The notes: generated by a model not told the origin, from the sequence alone. A stretch of DNA of 20,821 nt from a virus (IMGVR_UViG_3300020051_000999:1-20821); one strand, 5' to 3'. Counted from the first letter of the stretch, positions 8,887-20,821 are shown. Numbers and translations are program-made.

Positions 8887-9891
8887 ATGTCGATTAAAGA
8901 AAGACCATCAGCAGAATTCATTGAACTGCTAAAGCGCTCTGGCGCTTCTGATAAAGCTGTCGCTATCGAAGCACAGCGCGAAATCGCCAAGGCTCTTGAG
9001 CTTCCTTTGAGAAAGGGTGTTCTGTTTGGCGATGTTGTTACCTCGATTTTCGAGACAATGCCTCTTGAGCCGGGCGCTTCTCCAGAGTTTCCTTTGGACT
9101 TGCTTTCACCCGGAAGCGAAGTAGATCACATCGCTTACACTAATCCCGGAAACGGACGTATTCCTGAGCGTCACGTTGAAGGTGATTACGTCATGGTTAA
9201 CACCTACGGCATTTCTAGCTCGATTGACTTCTTGCTAAAATATGCTCGTGAGGCAAACTGGAACGTAGTCGCTCGCGCGATGCAAGTTCTTGAGTCTTCT
9301 TTCGTTAAGAAGATCAACGACGACGGATGGCACACCCTTTTGGCTGCCGCTGTTGATCGTAACATCTTGGTTTACGATGCCGATGCGGCTGCTGGTCAGT
9401 TCACCAAGCGTCTTGTAAGCCTTATGAAGACCGTTATGCGTCGTAATGGCGGCGGTAACAGTGTTACCGCTCCCGGACGTTTGACCGATCTTTACTGCTC
9501 GCCAGAAGCTATCGAAGACATCCGCAACTGGGGTGTCGATCAGCTTGACGAAGTTAGCCGTAGAGAAATCTACGTTGCTGGCGACGACGGTCCTGCAATC
9601 ACCAGAATCTTTGGTGTTAACTTGCACGACTTGTTCGAGTTTGGCGATAATCAAGAGTATCAGTCGTACTTCACGACCGATCTTGGCGGATCGCTTCAGG
9701 GTGGCGACGTTGAGCTTGTTATCGGCTTGGATCAAGGCGCTAGCGACAGCTTCGTTATGCCAGTCAAGCGTGAAGTTGAAATCTTTGAAGACGAAACTCT
9801 TCATCGTCATCAGCGACAAGGTTACTACGGATTCGCAGAAATGGGCTTTGGTGTCCTCGACAACCGAAGAGTTCTTGCTGGCTCCTTCTAG
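8887..9891 (+). CDS. major capsid protein
   Basis: A 334-aa HK97-fold capsid subunit. Supporting features are the long spine-like helix at about 126-154 (NVVARAMQVLESSFVKKIND), the P-domain-like GRLTDLYCSPEAIEDIRNW (198-216), and the position after portal, protease/scaffold and decoration genes. The ribosome site AAAGGAG is strong and a terminator follows 28 bases after the stop. Codon use differs from the neighbours: 17 of 22 arginines use CGN codons, mostly CGT or CGC, whereas the portal and terminase favour AGA/AGG. That is the pattern expected of a very highly expressed protein. The skewed codons also create long open frames on other frames over this gene, which are not genes. No N-terminal delta domain is seen, in keeping with a separate scaffold. 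Confidence 0.93.
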   Translation: MSIKERPSAEFIELLKRSGASDKAVAIEAQREIAKALELPLRKGVLFGDVVTSIFETMPLEPGASPEFPLDLLSPGSEVDHIAYTNPGNGRIPERHVEGDYVMVNTYGISSSIDFLLKYAREANWNVVARAMQVLESSFVKKINDDGWHTLLAAAVDRNILVYDADAAAGQFTKRLVSLMKTVMRRNGGGNSVTAPGRLTDLYCSPEAIEDIRNWGVDQLDEVSRREIYVAGDDGPAITRIFGVNLHDLFEFGDNQEYQSYFTTDLGGSLQGGDVELVIGLDQGASDSFVMPVKREVEIFEDETLHRHQRQGYYGFAEMGFGVLDNRRVLAGSF

Positions 9892-9918: not shown

Positions 9919-9950
9919 AAAGCCGTTCCTTTTGGGGCGGCTTTCTTTTT
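9919..9950 (+). terminator. rho-independent terminator after the capsid gene
   Basis: An 11-pair stem with left arm AAAGCCGTTCC (9919-9929) and right arm GGGGCGGCTTT (9934-9944), including two G-U pairs, closed by a TTTT loop and followed by CTTTTT. It ends the head-gene transcript and separates it from the fibre genes. Confidence 0.92.
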
Positions 9951-10219: not shown

Positions 10220-13075
10220 ATGGCTCGCAAGGTCTATGATAGAGTAAAAGAGTATACCGCCTCTACAGGTATTGGTGGTATTTCTTTCATTGGCGCCTTT
10301 ACTGGTTTTCAAAGTTTTGATAGTGTATTTACTAGTGGTGACACTACTTTTTATGTAATAGAAGAGCATAATCAGTGGGAAGTTGGTATTGGTACATACG
10401 GCTCTCACAACCTAGAGCGTGATACCGTTTTAAGTAGCTCTAATAATGGCAGCAAAATAAATCTCACCGGCAGCGGTGTTGTGTCTGTCACTTATCCAGC
10501 TTCTCAGGTTTTCTTTGCAGATGATGTTGTTGATGTTTCTGGTGTCGCGTACTATGCTAGCGGTCAAGCTGTAGAAAATGAACTACAGATAGCTTCTGTT
10601 AGCGGTTGGGCCAAATATTATGTTGAAAATCAAGACCATAGTGCAACAGCTGTTTCTGGTTGGGCTTCTTCTGAGATAGATCAGCTATATCTAGATGACG
10701 ACCACGTATCTGGTATTGCCTACTATGCAAGCGGTCAGGCTGTTCTGAATCAGGGCGATATTGCCTCTGTCTCCGGTTTGATTGGTGACGCAGACTTTCT
10801 TCCCGGAGCCACTGGCGCTCTAATAGATCAAAATACTCAGCAAATAGCTTCCGTGTCAGGATGGTCTCAGGTTTACGTTGATAATGGCGATGCTGCCGTT
10901 AGTGGGTGGACGCAGTCTGGATTGGATGGCTTGACGGGAGATTTGTCTTCTCTGAGCGGCTGGACTCAATCTGGATTAGATACCGTTGTTTCCGACTTAG
11001 GTTCTGTGAGCGGTTGGGCGCAGTCTGGTTTAGATGGTCTAACTAGCGATCTGGCTTCTGTTAGCGGATGGACTCAATCTGGTTTAGATTCTGTTGTTTC
11101 TGATCTAGCATCCGTTAGCGGATGGACTCAATCTGGATTAGACGATTTAACTAGTGATCTTACTTCTGTTAGCGGATGGACGCAGTTTGGATTAGATTCT
11201 GTTGTCTCGGATCTCGCCTCCGTGAGTGGATGGACAACCGATAATTTTAATACGATCAATACAGACGTTGATTATGTTTCTGGCATAGCTTCTTATGCTA
11301 GTGGTCAAGCTATTCAGAACGAAAGCGATATTGCTGCCGTATCAGGTCTTATCGGCGTTGCTGACTTTTTGCCGGGTGCCACTGGAGCATTAATAGATCA
11401 AAATTCAGAAGATATAGCCACGGCGTCTGGCGCTCTTAGAGATTCAATAAATCAAAACATATTAGACATAGCCTCTGTATCCGGCCTGCTTACTCCGAGC
11501 GGAACAGATTTTTCTTTTTCTAATGCTATTTTGACATATTTCAATAGCGCTGGTGGAAGTTTTGAGGTTGATCTTTCTAGCATTAGTGGCGATGTTTATG
11601 CTATGATTGTTGATGGGGCGCCCACAACACTTGATACTCTTAATGAGATTGCCGAAGCTTTAAATGACGATGAAAATATAGCGAACACCCTAACAACACT
11701 CATAGCAACCACAAGCGGCAATTTACAATCTCAAATAACAGACAATTTAAACGATCTTTCTTCAACTTCTGGTTATTTTGAAACTAGAGTAGATGGCGCT
11801 GATGCTGAGATATTAGCGGTCAGCGGCTGGTCAGACAGCACATTCTCCACTCTTTTGCAAATGGAATATGTCTCTGGTATTGCGACATATGCATCTGGTA
11901 AAAGTGTTACCGGTACTCCTAGCGGTGTTCTTTTCTTTGATGATGCCGGTTCTGTAACGGGTAATAGTTCGTTTATATTCGACGGGGCGAATGTTACTTT
12001 AGATGGATATATTGACGCAAGCGGCGAAAGGGTTGTAACTAGTCCTGATATTCATCATCTTGTTCAGTTAACTCAGGCTGAGTATGATGCCATTACCCCA
12101 GATTCTGCCACGTTTTATATTATAACAGATGCCCCGTCTGTGTCTGGGTATTTTGAGTCTAGAGTTTCTCAAAATGAAACAGATATTGTTGCCGTTTCTG
12201 GTATTGCGGCATACGCTTCTGGGAATAGTATTTCTGGCAATCCTAGTGGTATTCTTTTCTTTGATGATACTGGGGCCGTTACCGGAAACAATTCACTAAT
12301 ATTTGACGGTCAAAGCATTACGCTTGATGGAACTATATTTGCTACTGGTGAAAGAGTAATTACTAGTGATGAAATATTTCACATAAAACAATTAACACAG
12401 GCTGAATACGACGCCTCAACTCCAGATTCTTCTACATTCTATATCATAACAGACGCTAGCGAAGACGCTGCTATTTCTGGATATTTTGAATCTAGGGCTG
12501 ATAATGCGGATACCAATATAACGGCTGTTTCTGGAATAGCCGCTTACGCTTCTGGAAACACTATCACTGGAACCCCAAGTGGTATATTGTTCTTCGATAA
12601 TTCTGGTTCTGTTAGCGGTAGCAACACATTAATATATGATGGCGTAGATGTAGCGCTTAGTGGTAATATTACCGCTAGCGGAAAAAGAGTTATTAGTAGT
12701 GATGAAATATATCATATTAAACAGCTCACACAAGCCGAATACGATGTCATAACACCAGACGCCGCCACTTTTTATATTATTACAGATCCAGACATAGAAG
12801 GTCCGGTTGTACAGCCATACAGAGAAGTTTCATCAAACACGACGATTCTTACTTCTGATTATACTATAAACGCCACCGCTGGGTCGGTTCTTACTTTGCC
12901 AACAGCCGTAGGTAATGGTGGATTGATGTTTAATATTAAAAATACAAGTACTGGAAATGTAATAGTTAGTGGTGTTGCCGGAGAAACATTAGATGGTGAT
13001 ACGTCCTTTGAAATAAGTACTCAATATCAGTCTATTAAGGTACAATCAACTAACTCTAATTGGATTATCTTATAA
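10220..13075 (+). CDS. large repetitive fibre protein
   Basis: A 951-aa fibre built from modules. Residues 1-100 (MARKVYDRVKEYTASTG..., GAFTGFQSFDSV, HNQWEVGIGTY, LERDTVLSSSNNGS) match the N-terminal anchor domain common to many phage fibre-like proteins. Residues 110-430 carry repeated VSG(I/W/L) motifs, including an 18-aa tandem array. Around 470-500 the segment VDGAPTTLDTLNEIAEALND is a frequent tail-fibre shaft motif. Residues 551 to about 857 hold three copies of a ~110-aa module containing PSGILFFDD, IFDG and LTQAEYDAxTPDxxTFYIITD. The C-terminal ~85 residues form a beta domain ending in NSNWIIL. GAGG lies five bases before the ATG. It probably forms a trimeric fibre on tail or capsid; which site is unclear because it follows the capsid gene. 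Confidence 0.9.
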   Translation: MARKVYDRVKEYTASTGIGGISFIGAFTGFQSFDSVFTSGDTTFYVIEEHNQWEVGIGTYGSHNLERDTVLSSSNNGSKINLTGSGVVSVTYPASQVFFADDVVDVSGVAYYASGQAVENELQIASVSGWAKYYVENQDHSATAVSGWASSEIDQLYLDDDHVSGIAYYASGQAVLNQGDIASVSGLIGDADFLPGATGALIDQNTQQIASVSGWSQVYVDNGDAAVSGWTQSGLDGLTGDLSSLSGWTQSGLDTVVSDLGSVSGWAQSGLDGLTSDLASVSGWTQSGLDSVVSDLASVSGWTQSGLDDLTSDLTSVSGWTQFGLDSVVSDLASVSGWTTDNFNTINTDVDYVSGIASYASGQAIQNESDIAAVSGLIGVADFLPGATGALIDQNSEDIATASGALRDSINQNILDIASVSGLLTPSGTDFSFSNAILTYFNSAGGSFEVDLSSISGDVYAMIVDGAPTTLDTLNEIAEALNDDENIANTLTTLIATTSGNLQSQITDNLNDLSSTSGYFETRVDGADAEILAVSGWSDSTFSTLLQMEYVSGIATYASGKSVTGTPSGVLFFDDAGSVTGNSSFIFDGANVTLDGYIDASGERVVTSPDIHHLVQLTQAEYDAITPDSATFYIITDAPSVSGYFESRVSQNETDIVAVSGIAAYASGNSISGNPSGILFFDDTGAVTGNNSLIFDGQSITLDGTIFATGERVITSDEIFHIKQLTQAEYDASTPDSSTFYIITDASEDAAISGYFESRADNADTNITAVSGIAAYASGNTITGTPSGILFFDNSGSVSGSNTLIYDGVDVALSGNITASGKRVISSDEIYHIKQLTQAEYDVITPDAATFYIITDPDIEGPVVQPYREVSSNTTILTSDYTINATAGSVLTLPTAVGNGGLMFNIKNTSTGNVIVSGVAGETLDGDTSFEISTQYQSIKVQSTNSNWIIL
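10706..10860 (+). repeat. direct repeat A1 flanking the 18-aa array
   Basis: Encodes VSGIAYYASGQAVLNQGDIA followed by VSGLIGDADFLPGATGALIDQN. A diverged copy lies 570 bases downstream at 11276-11427, with the tandem 18-aa array in between. Confidence 0.8.
10895..11218 (+). repeat. tandem array of six 54-base (18-aa) units
   Basis: Six units of 18 codons, consensus SVSGWTQSGLDSVVSDLA, in the fibre gene, followed by a seventh partial unit. Unit ends alternate between an LTSDL type and a VVSDL type, so the true higher-order unit is 36 aa (108 bases). Confidence 0.9.
11276..11427 (+). repeat. direct repeat A2 flanking the 18-aa array
   Basis: Encodes VSGIASYASGQAIQNESDIA followed by VSGLIGVADFLPGATGALIDQN, the partner of the repeat at 10706-10860. 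Protein identity is high, especially across LPGATGALIDQN. Confidence 0.8.
11870..12792 (+). repeat. three tandem ~110-aa fibre modules
   Basis: Copies begin at 11870, 12194 and 12527 (108, 111 and about 89 codons). Each runs VSGIAxYASG, PSGxLFFDD, a (F/Y)DG strand, ASGxRV and LTQAEYDAxTPDxxTFYIITD. The third copy lacks the FESR linker and passes directly into the C-terminal domain. Confidence 0.88.
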
Positions 13076-15144
13076 TGAGTATAAAATTAGGTAATGCCGA
13101 AGTAAATGCTATATCTATAATTGAACCTTATAGTATAGGCGATCTTGGTGGCACTGATTATAGTGTAGGTAATCTTGAGCCAGATTGGGTTAGGCCGTCT
13201 GAGTGGATGGACATGCCCGTTATAAACTCTGGCGATAATAAGGTCGCTATGCTCATCGCCGTGGAGAGCGGTGTTCTTAACAAGGACATTGGATTCTTTC
13301 TTAGAGGCGCTCAAAGCAATTCTCCTAGTTATGCCACACACTCTATCATAGATTGGGGTGATGGATCTTCCGACCTCGTATATTTTGAGGGTCAGCCGGT
13401 TGATTATTATTATCATTCTTATAATTTTGACGACCTTCCAGAAAATACTGAATTTCTATTTGACGGCAAGTTAGCTAGACAGGTGATAATACAAATTGAT
13501 AGTTCGGCAAGCGGCTTAGACTATCTAAATCTTACTAGGTCTAATGGTGCATATTACAATGGTAGAGATGTTCATTCTAGTAACGGTCAATCTTCTAACA
13601 TTTTAGATCTTTATATTGATGCCCCGGATCTTAAAGTTATTTATAATGGAGGCTCACAACAAAAACACCTAGAAAGGATGCATGTAAATTGCGACAGTAT
13701 TTCGAATATAACGCTTTTTAAAAACTTACCAAGCCTTAAAGTTGCGCATATATCGAGCGGCGCAACTGCGGGGCTGTCTTCGTTGCAAGAATTTTTCTTT
13801 GGGTGTTCCAAGCTTCAACAGGCCCCTTTTATCGACACCTCTTCTGCTACTAAACTTCGAGGGGTGTTTCAAGGTTGCCATAGCATTAAAACTATTCCAA
13901 ATCTAGACACCTCTAGTTGTACAGATTTCTCTACCATGTTTTGGGAATGTCGATCTTTAGAATATATACCGGATTTCGATTACTCTAAAGCTACAACTCT
14001 TTCTCATACATTTGGGAATATGCACAATCTTAAAGCTGTTCCACACGGATTAAGATGGCCCACTGGCACATACGATTTCTACAATGGGTTTTATAATAAT
14101 AAGGAAATGGTCTATGTCGCATCAGACATGAACACAAGCGGAATAACAAGCCTTAGTCAATCTTTTCGGGAGTGTACATCGCTAAAAAAGATTCCAGAGA
14201 TATATTGCCCAAACGCCACGACTATGTATTATGCATTTTACAATTGCGATTCATTAAAAAAAATACATTTAAAAGACATATCATCTGTTACGGATATGAC
14301 CTACTCAATGTCTAATTGTGATGAATTAAGAGAAGTTACTGGAGAGAACCTGCCGACTGGCGTTACTACTTTTTATACAACATTTTATCAATCATCAAAG
14401 CTATTAAAGGCTCCAGAGTTTTACACCGGAAACGCTACGAACTTGAATCATATGTATGGCAATTGCGATGAGCTTGAATATGCCCAGACTATAGATGCCT
14501 CTAACGCCACATCTATATATGCTATATTTCAAGGATGCAGAAAAATAAAAGATGCTAGATTTATTAATGTTAATACTAAAATTACAGATGCGCGATACGC
14601 CTTTGATGCTTGCGAATCTTTAAAGTCTATTCCGTCTGGGTTGTTTGTTGATTACAATTCTTGCCCTTCTAGAGCAGATCTCATGTTTAACAGATGCTCT
14701 AGCCTTAGAGAAGTTAATAATATTGTTTTATCTGGTTGCATACAGAGTAACAATATTTCCCCATTTAGAAATTCCCCCGAAGGGTTAGATATTAGAAAAT
14801 TTGGAAATATAGAGTTTGGATCTGGGGTGTATCTTGACTGGCTAATTCACAACAACGATAAAGTAACCAGCGTTCCAGATTGGGATTTTTCTGGTGTTGA
14901 GTCTCTTCATGGTGCCTTTTGGGACTGTAACGGGTTGGCTTGGAGTGATGTTAAAAACACAAAAACCACAATTCACTATTATAATTGCCTGTTAGGAAGC
15001 GGCGCTATAGAAAATATATTCAATAACCTAGCGAGTGGCGTTGTTGGACAGAGTATAGATATCAGGGATAACTACGGCGTTTCAGAGCTTCACCCCGACA
15101 CCATCGCTATCGCAACTTCAAAAGGCTGGACTGTTACTACATAG
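13075..15144 (+). CDS. BspA-like leucine-rich-repeat protein, first of three
   Basis: A 689-aa protein. Residues 1-60 carry a conserved leader (KLGNAEVNAISIIEPY, WVRPSEWMDMPV). Residues about 60-145 form a PKD-like beta domain with IIDWGDG (91-97) and HSYNFDDL. From about 200 to 620 there are 23-24-aa repeats of the form TSxxTxxxxMFxxCxxLxxIPxxD, which is the DUF285/BspA-type LRR. The last ~65 residues (GSGAIENIFNN, SELHPDTIAIATSKGWTVTT) are shared with the next two genes. The ATG overlaps the fibre stop by one base (TAATG); an upstream in-frame TTG at 13060 is not favoured. No signal peptide, consistent with a virion protein rather than a secreted one. BspA LRRs are known in bacterial surface adhesins; a host-binding role here is inferred. 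Confidence 0.93.
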   Translation: MSIKLGNAEVNAISIIEPYSIGDLGGTDYSVGNLEPDWVRPSEWMDMPVINSGDNKVAMLIAVESGVLNKDIGFFLRGAQSNSPSYATHSIIDWGDGSSDLVYFEGQPVDYYYHSYNFDDLPENTEFLFDGKLARQVIIQIDSSASGLDYLNLTRSNGAYYNGRDVHSSNGQSSNILDLYIDAPDLKVIYNGGSQQKHLERMHVNCDSISNITLFKNLPSLKVAHISSGATAGLSSLQEFFFGCSKLQQAPFIDTSSATKLRGVFQGCHSIKTIPNLDTSSCTDFSTMFWECRSLEYIPDFDYSKATTLSHTFGNMHNLKAVPHGLRWPTGTYDFYNGFYNNKEMVYVASDMNTSGITSLSQSFRECTSLKKIPEIYCPNATTMYYAFYNCDSLKKIHLKDISSVTDMTYSMSNCDELREVTGENLPTGVTTFYTTFYQSSKLLKAPEFYTGNATNLNHMYGNCDELEYAQTIDASNATSIYAIFQGCRKIKDARFINVNTKITDARYAFDACESLKSIPSGLFVDYNSCPSRADLMFNRCSSLREVNNIVLSGCIQSNNISPFRNSPEGLDIRKFGNIEFGSGVYLDWLIHNNDKVTSVPDWDFSGVESLHGAFWDCNGLAWSDVKNTKTTIHYYNCLLGSGAIENIFNNLASGVVGQSIDIRDNYGVSELHPDTIAIATSKGWTVTT

Positions 15145-15153
15145 GTACAAATA

Positions 15154-17235
15154 ATGGCAAATTTAAAAGTAGGAAATACAAACGTCGGCAAGATTTCGGT
15201 TATAGAGCCGTATGAGGACGTGTATGTTGACAACACAGTAAGTGAACCTTGGGTGCGACCTAGTGAGTGGTTAGACATGCCCGTTATTGGCTCTGGTGAC
15301 GATAAGGTTGCCATATTAGTTTATGTTCCAAGTGGTCGGAAATATGAAGCCAAGATATACGCAAACGGAACGTATGTTAGCAATTATGATAGACCAACTT
15401 ATTATACCGTAGACTGGGGCGATGGGAATACAACTCTTGTCTCTGGTAATTATCCGTCTACTACTCATGTTAACGGCATCCAACATGCATATCACGAATA
15501 TGACTACAATGATTTATCACCAGATTCAGAATTTATATATCAAGGTGTACTATGCAGGCAAGCTATTGTTCAAATGGACAACAGTGTTAGTGGATGTTAT
15601 AATTTAGATTTATCTGGTTTTGGCCCAACTAATTACGAGCAAAATGCTCACGATGCTAACGTCAGAAGAGGTGCTAACCATGTATTAGACATACATGTAG
15701 CTTCTCAAAACCTCACTTACTTGAAGTTTTATGATAATTATAAGCCTAGATTTAGAAATCTAGAAAGAATTAAGATAGACAGCCCTAGAAGCATTGCCTC
15801 AATGTATCAAATGTTTTACCAGTGTGAGTCTTTGCGTTTAGCAATGCTACCAAGTGGGTTCACTACGGGGGTAACAGACTTTAGATACACCTTTGCTCTT
15901 TGCGAGAAACTTCAGGAGGTTCCATATTTAGATACATCTAGCGCAACACTTATGCACGATATGTTTAACCGCTGCTACAGCTTGGAAAAAATTCCAGATA
16001 TGGATACAACTAATGTTACAAATTTTGGTAACTTTGCTAATAGGTGTTATGACCTGAAGGAGATGCCAAATCTAGATTATAGAAATTCTTATATGAGAGA
16101 GGCTTTTACTTATTGTAGAAAGATAAAGTCAATTCCTAGTGGGGTAAGTTTTCATAACTGTAGTTCTCTATACGGTACATTTAATCTTTGCGATTTACAA
16201 GCTCTACCAAATGATATTTGGGAGAGGTGTTCTGGTGTTCCCGACATGGTTGCGGCTTTTTCTAATAATAACAATTTAAGAAGTGTTCCAAAAGTAAACA
16301 TACCGGATTGCACAGTTGGTTATTCTATGTTTGCAGGCTGTTCTAAACTAGAAAGTGTAGAACTTGGAGATGTATCTAACATACAGGTTACTGGATTTGT
16401 CAGTATGTTCAATGGGTGCAATTCTTTAAGAAGTGTAACATTTGACGACCCGGAAAATATAAAAGCTGATTCTACTAACTCTATGTTTTATAGATGCTTG
16501 TCATTAGAACAAGCGCCCTATTTTAACACATCTGGGGTTACAGACGCTAGATATATGTTTAACGGCTGCTACAATCTAAAGTCAATTCCTGCTTATGATT
16601 TTTCTAATTTAAGTACAGTTGGAATGACTAATTTCGCCTACGACTGTAGATCTCTAAAACATTTTGGTGGATTCAGGGGTATAAATAGTAATATTAGAGT
16701 TGATGCTTCTTTTATGTACTCTGATTCATTAAAAGAATTCCCATCTGGAATTTTCATAAGTCAAGATACATGTCCGGCGACTGGCTCGCAATTTATAAGA
16801 CAGAGCTACGGAGTACGAAGCGCTCCTCATATCTACGCTTCTGGAAATAGTGCTAATTCGATGTTTTATGAAGCATATAGTTTAAGATATATAGATGGAG
16901 TTACATTTGGCGCGGAGACAAATTGCTATCGAATGTTTTATAGTTGTCAGAACTTGAATAGATTTCCAGAAGCAGACGGATCTCTCATAACAAATGCTAC
17001 AGATATGTTTTTAAGTTGTGTCGAATTAGAGTGGTCAGATTTAAATAATGTCGGCGTATCTATTTCATATAGATCTAACTTTCTTGCTAGCGGTGCAATA
17101 GAAAATATATTTAATCGCCTCGCTAGCGGGGTCGCGGGTCAAAGTATTGATATAGTAGGTAACTATGGAACTTCCGAACTTCATTCAGACACTTTAGCGA
17201 TAGCTACCAGCAAGGGTTGGACAGTTACAACATAA
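15154..17235 (+). CDS. BspA-like leucine-rich-repeat protein, second of three
   Basis: A 693-aa paralogue of its neighbours. The leader (KVGNTNVGKISVIEPY, WVRPSEWLDMPV) and the TVDWGDG motif (85-91) with HEYDYNDL match the first copy. Repeats of DUF285 type fill about 200-625, for example MFNRCYSLEKIPDMDTTNVT. An irregular segment EFPSGIFISQDTCPATGSQF near residue 526 has counterparts in both sister proteins. The C-terminus is the shared GSGAIE/SASGV...SELH...ATSKGWTVTT type. It starts nine bases after the previous stop with only an AGG-like ribosome site, so translation is probably coupled. One 20-base stretch near the start is identical to the third copy. The repeat core is far more diverged than the ends. 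Confidence 0.93.
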   Translation: MANLKVGNTNVGKISVIEPYEDVYVDNTVSEPWVRPSEWLDMPVIGSGDDKVAILVYVPSGRKYEAKIYANGTYVSNYDRPTYYTVDWGDGNTTLVSGNYPSTTHVNGIQHAYHEYDYNDLSPDSEFIYQGVLCRQAIVQMDNSVSGCYNLDLSGFGPTNYEQNAHDANVRRGANHVLDIHVASQNLTYLKFYDNYKPRFRNLERIKIDSPRSIASMYQMFYQCESLRLAMLPSGFTTGVTDFRYTFALCEKLQEVPYLDTSSATLMHDMFNRCYSLEKIPDMDTTNVTNFGNFANRCYDLKEMPNLDYRNSYMREAFTYCRKIKSIPSGVSFHNCSSLYGTFNLCDLQALPNDIWERCSGVPDMVAAFSNNNNLRSVPKVNIPDCTVGYSMFAGCSKLESVELGDVSNIQVTGFVSMFNGCNSLRSVTFDDPENIKADSTNSMFYRCLSLEQAPYFNTSGVTDARYMFNGCYNLKSIPAYDFSNLSTVGMTNFAYDCRSLKHFGGFRGINSNIRVDASFMYSDSLKEFPSGIFISQDTCPATGSQFIRQSYGVRSAPHIYASGNSANSMFYEAYSLRYIDGVTFGAETNCYRMFYSCQNLNRFPEADGSLITNATDMFLSCVELEWSDLNNVGVSISYRSNFLASGAIENIFNRLASGVAGQSIDIVGNYGTSELHSDTLAIATSKGWTVTT

Positions 17236-17244
17236 GGTATACAA

Positions 17245-19464
17245 ATGGCAATTATTAAAGTAGGTAATAATAGTATAGGTAAGATATCGGTTATAGAGCC
17301 GTATGATGATCCTATTGGATATCAGGAAATTCAAACAACACCTTGGGTGCGCCCTAGTGAGTGGCTTGACATGCCCGTTTATTCTTCTGGCGACGATAAG
17401 GTTGCGATATTAGCCTTTGTCCCAAGCGGCTTACCTATGCAAGCACGCATAGAGCTTTTTGGGACTTACATTTCTAATGAAGTAAGACCAACTTTATCGA
17501 CTGTAGATTGGGGTGATGGTAATTCCGTTGCAGTTAGTGGTACTGACTATAGAGATACTTATCCGGGTTATGTTGAACCGGCTGTGCATACATACAGCTA
17601 TGACGACCTTTCTTCTGACACAGAGTTTGAATACAATGGTCGAATTTGTAGACAGGCAATGATAGAAATAACTAACGCTAGTGGCATGTATTATTTAGAT
17701 TTAAGCGATTTTGCTGCTACTAACAATAAAACAGATCCAGATAGCTATGGAAGAGCCTCTGTTTCACACAATTATTTAGAATTAAGTATTAATTCTTCTG
17801 GGTGTGAGAATGTATATCTTCGTAGACATCCTCCATATAGAGGCTCTCCAAGACATTGTAAAAAAATAAAAATAAGATCGGACAAGTCTATTACTAATGG
17901 TCAGACGTTTTGGCAGCTTTATGAACTTGAAGAATTAGATATTGAAAGTGGTATTTTTAGAGATCTCACAAGTTTCAATTATATGTTTGCAGACTGTAGA
18001 AGACTCAAGAGCGTGCCTTATTTCGACACCTCTTCAGCTACCTCAATGGGGACCATGTTTAATGGCTGCTGGGATCTAGAGGAAATTCCAGATTTTGACA
18101 CATCTAATGTGACTTCGTTTGGTAGCTTTGCTTCATATTGCTATAACCTAAAGAAAATTCCAAACATAGATTTTAGTAACGCCACTAATTTAAATAATTC
18201 CTTTTTTAATTGTACGACTATAAAATCTATTCCCTCTGGCATGAATATTTCTAATGCTCAAAATTTAGCGGGATGTTTTCAGGGCTGTACTAATCTCTCC
18301 GCTGTTCCAGATAATTTAGATTTTTCTTCTGCTACCACTACTGACGGTATGTTCCGAATATGTTCAAACTTAAAAAGATGTCCAGATTTATATCTTCCAA
18401 ACGTTACAGACATGGACTCTATGTTTAATGGTTGTTCGACATTAAAAGTTTCACCAAGTATAGATGCTCCCGTCGCAACAAATGCCAGTCGCGTTTTTAT
18501 GTCGTGTTATGGAATAAGAAAAGCGGGCTTTATAAATATACCAAGTGCTACAGACATTTCTTATTTTTTTAACGATTGCTATAATCTCCAGAACGCAGAG
18601 TTTGGCTCGATGACGGGCGTGCAAAGGTTAGATGGCGCTTTTGCTGATTGTCACGACCTAAATACTCTAAAAATGAATAGCATTGAAAATGCTTTACCCA
18701 CGCACACGCTTTCCATGCTTGAAAATTGTAAAACCATTAAGCGTGTTCCAACAATAAACACCTCTAATTGTTTATATACCTATAGCATGTATCTCGGTTG
18801 CAATTCTTTACAAGAGATCCCCGAACATGATCTTTCAAACGTTATAAATTGTAGTTATATGTTTAGGGGCTGCGGGTTGCTAGTTAATTTTGGCGGTGTT
18901 ACGAATTTTAGTTCTGTGGCAACAAATATAAACGGCATGTTCCAAGATACGCCCGTATCCGAGCTGCCCTCAAGTATTTTTACAAGCGGTTTTCCTGCTG
19001 GCGCATCGGCTCAATCTTTTGCTTGGGGGACGCATGTGGAATACATTCCAGTTCTTAACATATCGGGAGTCACTGACATTGATTATATCAGCTACAGCCC
19101 ATTTAGAAGTTCTCCATTAAAAGGAATAGGAACACTTGTTATTGGGGATGCCAATGCTTCTAATACATTTAATACTTGCGAGTGGATTCAAGTAATACCA
19201 AGCGCCGACGCCTCTAATGCTCAATCTTTGACGAACTTTTGTTATAATGCCAATTCTTTAACTTGGTCAGATTTATATAATGTTAATAAAACAATTAGTT
19301 ATTATGCGTGTTACTTAGGTAGTGGCGCCATAGAGCATATTTTTAATAACCTGAGTACGGTTAGCTCTGAGACTATCGACATAAGGTATAATTACGGAAC
19401 CAAAGAGCTTCACCCGGATACAATAGCAGTAGCAACCAGCAAGGGTTGGACCGTCACAACATAA
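17245..19464 (+). CDS. BspA-like leucine-rich-repeat protein, third of three
   Basis: A 739-aa paralogue with the same order of parts: leader (KVGNNSIGKISVIEPY, WVRPSEWLDMPV), PKD-like domain with TVDWGDG (86-92) and HTYSYDDL, a DUF285 repeat array, and the shared C-terminal domain ending ATSKGWTVTT. It is 46 aa longer than the second copy. Because the distances from the N-terminus to DWGDG and from the ELPSSIF segment to the C-terminus are almost the same in both, the extra length is in the LRR array and equals about two repeats. It starts nine bases after the previous stop, the same gap as between the first two copies. The likely role is a surface or receptor-binding protein, by family and position. 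Confidence 0.93.
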   Translation: MAIIKVGNNSIGKISVIEPYDDPIGYQEIQTTPWVRPSEWLDMPVYSSGDDKVAILAFVPSGLPMQARIELFGTYISNEVRPTLSTVDWGDGNSVAVSGTDYRDTYPGYVEPAVHTYSYDDLSSDTEFEYNGRICRQAMIEITNASGMYYLDLSDFAATNNKTDPDSYGRASVSHNYLELSINSSGCENVYLRRHPPYRGSPRHCKKIKIRSDKSITNGQTFWQLYELEELDIESGIFRDLTSFNYMFADCRRLKSVPYFDTSSATSMGTMFNGCWDLEEIPDFDTSNVTSFGSFASYCYNLKKIPNIDFSNATNLNNSFFNCTTIKSIPSGMNISNAQNLAGCFQGCTNLSAVPDNLDFSSATTTDGMFRICSNLKRCPDLYLPNVTDMDSMFNGCSTLKVSPSIDAPVATNASRVFMSCYGIRKAGFINIPSATDISYFFNDCYNLQNAEFGSMTGVQRLDGAFADCHDLNTLKMNSIENALPTHTLSMLENCKTIKRVPTINTSNCLYTYSMYLGCNSLQEIPEHDLSNVINCSYMFRGCGLLVNFGGVTNFSSVATNINGMFQDTPVSELPSSIFTSGFPAGASAQSFAWGTHVEYIPVLNISGVTDIDYISYSPFRSSPLKGIGTLVIGDANASNTFNTCEWIQVIPSADASNAQSLTNFCYNANSLTWSDLYNVNKTISYYACYLGSGAIEHIFNNLSTVSSETIDIRYNYGTKELHPDTIAVATSKGWTVTT

Positions 19465-19478
19465 AAGGAGAAAAAAAA

Positions 19479-19763
19479 ATGGCACATATAGAAGATGGTT
19501 TTTATAAGCACGATCAGGAAAGAAATTACATTCATCATGGCAATAATGTGTATAATGCTATGTATACGCTGTCGCGCCCAGAAAAAGACAGTTACGACCT
19601 ACCAATCGACGGATGGTACTGGTTTGACACTCCGCAGGCCGCCTGTGAGTTTTTTGGGGTTGACATAGAAGAGCATGATTATCTAACTTATGATCCAGAT
19701 CACGATGAAAATCTAAATCCGGGTTTTAATCCAGAAGAAGGAATAGATCCACATGGCATATAG
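19479..19763 (+). CDS. small acidic protein of unknown function
   Basis: A 94-aa protein that I do not recognise. It is rich in Asp, Glu, His and Tyr (GFYKHDQERNYIHHGNNVYN, DGWYWFDTPQAACEFFGVD) and ends in an acidic, Pro/Gly-containing tail (DPDHDENLNPGFNPEEG). Ribosome site AAAAGGAG stands eight bases before ATG 19479; an earlier in-frame non-ATG start at 19446 would lie inside the LRR gene and is rejected. Its stop overlaps the start of the next fibre gene by 11 bases. The strong ribosome site contrasts with the weak sites of the LRR genes, so it may be made in larger amounts. It could be an accessory or chaperone for the fibres, but nothing in the sequence proves this. Confidence 0.8.
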   Translation: MAHIEDGFYKHDQERNYIHHGNNVYNAMYTLSRPEKDSYDLPIDGWYWFDTPQAACEFFGVDIEEHDYLTYDPDHDENLNPGFNPEEGIDPHGI

Positions 19764-20821
19764 TCCAGTACCAAAGCTTACCAATGGTAATGCTACATTT
19801 AATTATGATCTGAGTGTTAGTGGTATAGCAACGGCTGGATCTGGCTTGGTTTTGGTTGATCTTGTTCCGGCCACCACGACAAACACTCTATATAATGATG
19901 CTGGAACCCTAAAATTCAATGGTGCCGCTATTGGTGGCGGCGGTGGATCTACATACACGTCTGGAAGCGGCATAACCATAGATGGCGATGACAACATACA
20001 CGTCTATGGTGGCAGTGGAAATTTCCAATATATTGAACTGCAAACAGATAATACGCTTATTCCAAAGATGAAGTTTACTGGCTCAGGCGTTACAGACACG
20101 CCAATTAGCCTAGAGGTGGCTTCTAGTTTTGAAAGTGCAACTGGCTCTGGTTCTGCTCTCTTGTTTCAGGGGACTCAGGGGCAATTATTCTCTATTACAG
20201 ATAATCTCTCAAGCGGTACGATCTTTAGTGTTTCTGACATTACTGGCCTACCAATGCTTGAGATCGACGCTTCGGGACACGTTCAGATTGGGGAGTTTGC
20301 AGACGATATAACTCTACATCAGGCGGTTCTTCTTTCTGGGGGGGTTCCTTCTGACACAACAAATAAATTATATAATAATGCGGGCGAGTTGTACTTTAAT
20401 GGTGCCAGTCTTGAGTATGATGACACCTATGTTTCTGGGATTGCAACTTATGCGAGCGGTCAGGTTATAGAAAATAAAGCCGATATTGTTTATATATCTG
20501 GTGTTGCTGCGGGCGGTATTACTGCTGAAGATTTAGAATATGTCTCTGGAATAGCTGTTTATGGGTCTGGTCTTGATAGTTATCTATTAAACCCTAGTGG
20601 TGTTGATGGTATTGCAATTACTTCTACCCCAGATCATGTAATATTTAGTGGAGATGCAACACTTGCTAGAGTGAGCGATCTAAATGTCATTTCTGGTGTT
20701 GCCACATCACAAACCTTACAATCTATTACAGATAATGGTTCTACAACTAATAATGCTATAACAATAAATAATGATCTTACAGCAGAGTTTATATTTGCTG
20801 AATTAGACGGCCCAATTGTCT
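19753..20821 (+). CDS. fibre-like structural protein, 3' end cut by window edge
   Basis: An open frame of 356 codons from ATG 19753 to the window end with no stop, starting MAYSPVPKLTNGNATFNYDL. It contains two copies of a NxLYNxAGxLxFNGA motif (about residues 45-58 and 209-222), a segment resembling phage head or tail fibre strands. From about residue 225 it carries VSGIATYASGQVIENKADIV and VSGIAVYGSG, the same modules seen in the fibre gene at 10220. An AAGGAA lies nine bases before the start. The two fibre genes thus bracket the three LRR genes and share modules. It is probably another long trimeric fibre; the size and C-terminal function cannot be seen. Confidence 0.9.
   Translation, partial: MAYSPVPKLTNGNATFNYDLSVSGIATAGSGLVLVDLVPATTTNTLYNDAGTLKFNGAAIGGGGGSTYTSGSGITIDGDDNIHVYGGSGNFQYIELQTDNTLIPKMKFTGSGVTDTPISLEVASSFESATGSGSALLFQGTQGQLFSITDNLSSGTIFSVSDITGLPMLEIDASGHVQIGEFADDITLHQAVLLSGGVPSDTTNKLYNNAGELYFNGASLEYDDTYVSGIATYASGQVIENKADIVYISGVAAGGITAEDLEYVSGIAVYGSGLDSYLLNPSGVDGIAITSTPDHVIFSGDATLARVSDLNVISGVATSQTLQSITDNGSTTNNAITINNDLTAEFIFAELDGPIV

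Follow-up and report, generated by a model that had tools for sequence, protein, structure and literature searches.

Tandem leucine-rich repeat genes next to a tail-fibre gene: candidate exchangeable fibre-tip adhesins in an uncultivated phage clade

We analysed a 20.8-kb linear virus record (20,821 nucleotides, hereafter the window) in which three consecutive genes for BspA/DUF285-type leucine-rich repeat (LRR) proteins lie between two fibre-like genes. We propose, with a probability of about 0.6, that these proteins form a repertoire of fibre-tip adhesins served by an assembly partner of their own, and host binding is the best reading we can give of the role of the LRR family. Since relatives carry from one to six copies that swap their middles and keep their ends, the system appears to be a changeable host-binding kit.

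The source phage is uncultivated and probably marine. Pfam and PHROG searches gave the gene order of the window as sugar epimerase, nucleases, head protease, large terminase, a 694-aa gene, a gene in the scaffold position, cement and major head protein (MCP, 8887-9891); the 694-aa gene had no PHROG match and is taken for the portal, judged by its position. Downstream of the head protein come a hairpin, a small ORF, the fibre gene FIB1, the LRR genes LRRA, LRRB and LRRC, a small gene termed h19458 and, read as an ORF, the start of a second fibre-like gene, FIB2 (19753-20821), which is cut by the contig end; all features from FIB1 onwards are on the plus strand. The same gene order through FIB2 was found in contigs L010, L013, L014 and L118. 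As the hairpin (9919-9944) is strong, terminator-like and directly 3' of the head protein gene, it suggests that the fibre/LRR block forms a transcription unit of its own; a promoter scan gave no excess over shuffled sequence. The MCP belongs to a very abundant uncultivated phage clade with at least 591 related stretches in IMG/VR, on contigs of up to 148 kb, and has no close named relative, its only match among named phages being one of 23% to Bacillus phage G. Related MCPs in MAG contigs binned with Flavobacteriales (2), Chitinophagia (1) and Alphaproteobacteria (1) hint weakly at Bacteroidota hosts.

LRRA (13075-15144, 689 aa), LRRB (15154-17235, 693 aa) and LRRC (17245-19464, 739 aa) are separated by gaps of 9 nt each. 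The first-pass annotation had described three tandem genes here with a common layout and a common C-terminus, and full-length alignment bears this out, with B 36% and C 34% identical to A. All three proteins exceed the Pfam cut-off for DUF285 (6.3e-20, 1.4e-18 and 5.7e-23, respectively), as had been anticipated from the repeats, and LRR_5 is also over its cut-off in LRRA and in LRRB (2.5e-14). A DNA-level search found seven DUF285 stretches in the window and none in 14 control genomes, and across the wider family 20 of 22 members matched a DUF285/BspA-type LRR profile (PF03382, PF13306) at E<=0.01; profile matches include lamprey variable lymphocyte receptors. The cysteine ladder noticed at first is equally real: the proteins hold 17, 20 and 23 cysteines, many of them spaced 24-26 apart, and 9-11 F..C..L motifs each. 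Conservation of the ends extends to the DNA, as had been claimed, in the form of a 221-nt repeat spanning the A/B and B/C junctions (71%) and of 94 nt at the 3' ends of the genes (68-70% identity). Averaged over pairs of 28 family members, identity is 42% in the leader, 34% in the DWGDG domain, 29.5% in the repeat core and 50% in the C-terminal cap, so that the cores have diverged as first supposed.

LRRA divides into a leader (residues 1-36), a DWGDG domain (37-200), an LRR solenoid (about 201-622) and a cap (623-689). An AlphaFold2 model of this copy, built with 21 relatives (pLDDT 88.9, pTM 0.81), agrees with this layout: residues 1-35 are predicted to be mostly disordered, the beta-rich domain containing DWGDG spans about 55-200, the solenoid follows at 200-620, and the chain ends in a helical cap. 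Although the leader ranks with the better conserved regions, its pLDDT is mostly below 50; leaders are hydrophilic and, by eye, unlike signal peptides, lipoboxes or transmembrane segments. What the annotation called a leader therefore stands as a conserved segment, but as a hydrophilic and predicted-disordered one. Its 'PKD-like domain with DWGDG' likewise survives in part: the model shows a beta-sandwich, but no Pfam PKD match was obtained in 22 family members and none in a profile search of the PDB, and the PKD likeness of the window proteins is confined to the DWGDG stretch. We call the domain a PKD-like beta-sandwich because of the model and because a cultured relative, S-CBWM1 gp93, passes Pfam PKD. 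When the LRRA model was compared with solved structures by Foldseek, the first match was 4gt6, a Faecalibacterium leucine-rich cell surface protein, with TM-scores to solved LRRs that were low, perhaps due to solenoid curvature. Among viral models the first matches were uncultured-phage proteins annotated 'Bacterial surface protein 26-residue repeat', and the phage protein A0A6J5NAQ5 matched over its full length (TM 0.68).

An LRR fold in a phage is not new, since BspA-type LRRs have already been annotated there. With one relative as query, 146 of 50,697 phage records were matched, some of which bear the name 'BspA family leucine-rich repeat surface protein', and one case, in Vibrio phage pir03, has been published (PMC7765460); the initial view that BspA LRRs belong mainly to bacteria and protists thus has to be given up. 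Matches to Phapecoctavirus 'tail proteins', which at first resembled an example from a laboratory strain, were dropped, as Pfam found no DUF285 in them. We compared S-SKS1 gp142, S-CBWM1 gp93, PAU gp103, Vibrio phage pir03 ORF287 and tail protein I of Klebsiella phage ST16-OXA48phi5.4. S-SKS1 and S-CBWM1 resemble the window in combining DWGDG/PKD, DUF285-like repeats and a terminal GWTV-like cap, whereas the cultured-phage proteins differ from it in being single copy where examined and in having no WVRPSEW leader; the small partner gene was not detectable at the four loci examined (S-SKS1, S-CBWM1, PAU and Klebsiella). In the Klebsiella phage a single fusion protein combines the P2 gpI baseplate protein with the LRR (Pfam Tail_P2_I 4e-38, LRR_5/DUF285), which by analogy lends independent support to a tail role for such LRRs. 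Searches of open-access literature on LRR or DUF285 adhesins of phages, or on the virion proteins of such phages, found no experimentally studied LRR tip adhesin.

The link between the LRR genes and the fibre is close. FIB1 (10220-13075) encodes a 951-aa tail-fibre-like protein with three matches to PF24243 'phage tail tip' (4e-18) and PHROG tail protein/fibre matches; repeated SGWTQSGLD-type units stand beside the three PF24243 units. Its last 141 aa (FIB1C, 12650-13072), which have a mean column identity of 85% over nine copies, are proposed as the docking site for the LRR leaders. The stop codon of FIB1 overlaps the start codon of LRRA by 1 nt in a TAATG (13073-13077), and the same overlap occurs in every fibre/first-LRR pair of the clade, both pairs of L010 included. 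Among contigs of the MCP-defined clade that extend far enough past the head protein gene, FIB1C and LRR genes occur together in five, are both absent from 31 and in no case occur one without the other, a count with which whole-record DUF285 scans of most of these contigs agree; the contigs are mutually related, for which reason Fisher-type tests were left out. Contig L029, with an MCP 99% identical, has a different fibre end and no LRR gene. Two fibre ends occur in L010: one LRR gene follows a long fibre, and five more follow a 160-aa mini-fibre, which consists of a FIB2-like start joined to FIB1C. Across phage groups each type of upstream fibre C-terminus pairs with its own type of LRR leader, and in L120, which has two modules, fibre end and leader are matched in each; this between-group match is confounded by common descent. 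Within the clade, divergence of FIB1C did not track that of the leader or body of the first copy (Mantel p 0.84 and 0.33, respectively), and fine-scale co-evolution of the fibre tip with either was rejected.

Comparison across relatives, a check that the annotation had itself named, revealed both the range of copy number and the exchange of parts between copies. Where both array ends are visible, there are three LRR copies in the window, six in L010, three each in L013 and L118 and one in L014; tandem arrays were found only in the FIB1C clade, while other modules usually have one LRR gene. In a tree of 26 bodies there are no sister pairs within one genome, and the well-supported pairs join different contigs. 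Bodies match across contigs by region (W_A of the window with L010_5, L011_1 and L012_1; L010_6 with L030_3 and L031_1), and leaders follow types of their own, apart from the body groupings. From these sequence relationships, bodies are drawn from a pool of types common to several contigs.

Three chimeric genes switch sharply from one leader to another body near the WVRPSEW box. The second copy of L031 joins the leader of window copy B (up to 100% DNA identity) to the body of window copy C (88-100%; 95-96% at the amino-acid level), that of L030 joins the leader of L010 copy 3 to the body of L010 copy 4 (each up to 100%), and that of L118 has a C-type leader on an L013_2-type body. A deletion between adjacent copies would produce genes like the first two. 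The A/B junction (15115-15215) consists of KGWTVTT and its stop codon, the 9-nt spacer, ATG and a B-type leader, and near-identical DNA is found in other contigs; the B/C junction (17206-17306), with a C-type leader, has near-identical DNA in L011. Such KGWTVTT-spacer-leader DNA hardly differs between contigs with bodies of less than 40% identity, and we read that of the A/B junction as a probable crossover handle. The conserved ends coincide with recombination junctions as well as with the probable docking and cap elements.

One transfer is apparently recent. Between the window and L031, dS is 0.055 in the core of copy C and about 0.43-0.53 in MCP, scaffold and cement genes, which indicates that the C body moved recently. 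The same core has a dN/dS of 0.43, as compared to 0.01 for MCP; this raised value, still below 1, could come from relaxed constraint. When placed in repeat register, substitutions stand at 0.59-0.64 around the F..C..L positions versus 0.07-0.15 at F, C, L and P. A diversity-generating retroelement (DGR) was also considered, and the reading of the LRR genes as its targets was rejected: no reverse transcriptase (RVT_1) was found nearby in 18 module-bearing records, which are partial and up to 174 kb long.

Directly after the last LRR copy lies h19458 (19479-19763), a gene with a strong Shine-Dalgarno sequence (AAAGGAG) that encodes a 94-aa protein (GFYK...YDLPIDGWYWFDT...) of a family with the motif GFYK...PVDGWYWFD.... 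Searched for by itself in IMG/VR, this family gave 144 relatives, of which 80 were kept, and the examined loci (L010-L226) hold 60 distinct ones. Counting distinct sequences with a visible upstream gene, from the h19458-only scan and from otherwise obtained loci, the gene upstream was an LRR protein with a (K/R)GWTV-like cap in 58/58. The phages that carry the LRR and h19458 module are unlike each other: in L019 the module is surrounded by contractile-tail sheath, portal and major head genes, and others have quite different fibres. Twelve columns are invariant among seven distant members of the small family. Its core domain has no Pfam or PHROG match, a profile search of the PDB was empty or irrelevant, Foldseek gave no match, and tblastn against 50,697 phage records returned nothing with two queries (E<=0.1 and E<=0.01) and weak hits with a third (E 0.3-0.5). 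No known tail-fibre chaperone fold or sequence was recognised by Pfam, PHROG or Foldseek, with a predicted model that is itself weak (pLDDT 72). By its linkage, h19458 is a putative dedicated folding or assembly partner of the LRR proteins. A few relatives have a C-terminal extension matching phrog_6034/14311. In L168 (1-3186) two small-protein genes lie within 3.2 kb, apparently with a fibre end and an LRR gene between them, and apparently the whole module, beyond the LRR gene alone, can be duplicated.

We therefore posit the following arrangement. FIB1 would form the fibre shaft and FIB1C its tip, on which the conserved, disordered LRR leader would dock; the DWGDG beta-sandwich would act as a spacer, and the variable BspA/DUF285-type solenoid, ending in its helical cap, would touch the host surface. 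LRRA would be translated by termination-reinitiation from FIB1 at the TAATG, with B and C following at 9 nt, and the h19458 product would assist their folding or assembly. Copies would be gained, lost and exchanged as cassettes through homologous recombination at the junction/leader DNA and the WVRPSEW box, with the result that each phage holds a repertoire of one to six heads from a common pool. A further step, which we offer more tentatively, is that these are alternative tips with interchangeable heads on one dock, sharing one small partner and reshuffled so as to give mixed specificities, and that one and the same module sits on different fibres in many unrelated phages; if true, single virions or progeny populations would display mixed host specificities.

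Other roles for the LRR proteins were weighed against this one. They might be weak polysaccharide or mucus binders decorating the particle, like capsid Ig-like decorations, instead of a specific receptor-binding tip: the DWGDG beta-sandwich and solenoid could bind glycans, and in L019 the LRR gene lies between portal and prohead genes. We regard this as unlikely, because the LRR gene always follows a fibre or fibre-like C-terminus and not capsid genes as such, because the cores vary far more than expected of a general glue, and because the strong hairpin separates the MCP gene from the fibre block. Slightly less probable still is a moron role, with BspA-like proteins on the infected cell, and not on the virion, serving to exclude superinfection or to alter cell adhesion. 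The classical BspA/DUF285 proteins lie on bacterial surfaces, and those of phages are annotated as 'BspA family leucine-rich repeat surface protein' or as 'outer surface protein'; however, by eye the N-termini do not look like export or anchoring signals, the first LRR gene overlaps the fibre gene translationally, LRR presence follows FIB1C, the Klebsiella phages fuse an LRR to a baseplate protein, and the L019 gene sits among those for sheath, portal and major head protein.

The roles of the two gene types could also be reversed, with the h19458 product as the fibre tip or cap and the LRR proteins as assembly or linker parts. The strong conservation of the small protein across phages, with its invariant columns, and its leading Shine-Dalgarno sequence would suit this; but a small, conserved protein present once per array is the opposite of a variable receptor-binding part, and variability resides in the LRR cores, which makes the reversal quite improbable. 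Of comparable standing, if anything a shade lower, is a recent tandem duplication with accelerated divergence within this genome. The common layout and order and the conserved ends gave it appeal, and the first-pass annotation had read the genes as a duplicated, diversifying set; the body tree largely refutes it, since the close relatives of a body, where there are any, always lie in other contigs and the cross-contig chimeras are clear. From that earlier interpretation we retain a BspA/DUF285-type LRR family between two fibre genes, with diverged cores and kept ends, but neither the fresh duplication nor the bacterial and protist restriction; it had overlooked the fibre tip that goes with the array, the translational overlap and the small gene 3' of the last copy.

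Known fibre systems offer precedents for the proposed adhesin. In T2 and S16 a separate adhesin gene, gp38, likewise lies directly downstream of the distal fibre gene gp37, and the adhesin, with a conserved N-terminal attachment part and a variable distal receptor-binding part, caps the fibre, as we propose for the LRR proteins (PMC6851490, PMC12892980). However, gp38 attaches through a Trp-containing three-helix bundle and uses the loops of a polyglycine sandwich for binding (PMC6851490, PMC12892980), whereas the window proteins have a disordered leader, a DWGDG domain and an LRR solenoid, occur in one to six tandem copies and have an extra small partner gene; neither glycine-rich motifs or a polyglycine sandwich nor a Trp helical bundle was seen in their sequence or model. 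By analogy, the arrangement would work like gp37-gp38 while being no member of that family. BspA-like/DUF285 (PF03382) surface proteins share the Pfam profile, the F..C..L repeat and, in 4gt6, the top solved match, but the window proteins differ from them in a phage structural-gene context, a proposed docking leader, the WVRPSEW box, tandem cassettes and no visible signal peptide or anchor. The tail fibre and chaperone module of Alteromonas phages V22 and A5 is comparable as a host-recognition module with a cognate assembly protein, horizontally exchanged between unrelated phages (PMC10579305); no LRR adhesin is described there, and h19458 resembles no solved protein in sequence or fold.

What appears to be new here is the combination of arrays of one to six copies, cassette exchange at leaders and junctions, a strict link to one fibre tip and an associated family of small proteins. 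Accounts of phage host range usually invoke one adhesin per fibre, or DGRs and invertases, and LRR solenoids elsewhere serve diverse recognition. A widespread uncultivated group appears instead to line up alternative tips and to exchange the heads of these as cassettes, with no retroelement involved. Copy numbers of one to six yield a clear prediction on host breadth, and the h19458 family provides a sequence handle for host-recognition modules in metagenomic phages.

Two further observations were made. A Klebsiella Reipivirus (L008 7422-10448; MK416015.1 23679-26705) encodes a P2 gpI baseplate protein fused to Big_2, DYGDG and BspA-type LRR repeats, so that tail protein and LRR are naturally joined in a named phage. 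In the window, a nucleotide-sugar epimerase/dehydratase gene (114-1070; phrog_540, 9e-63) lies near the packaging genes and is a possible surface-sugar gene.
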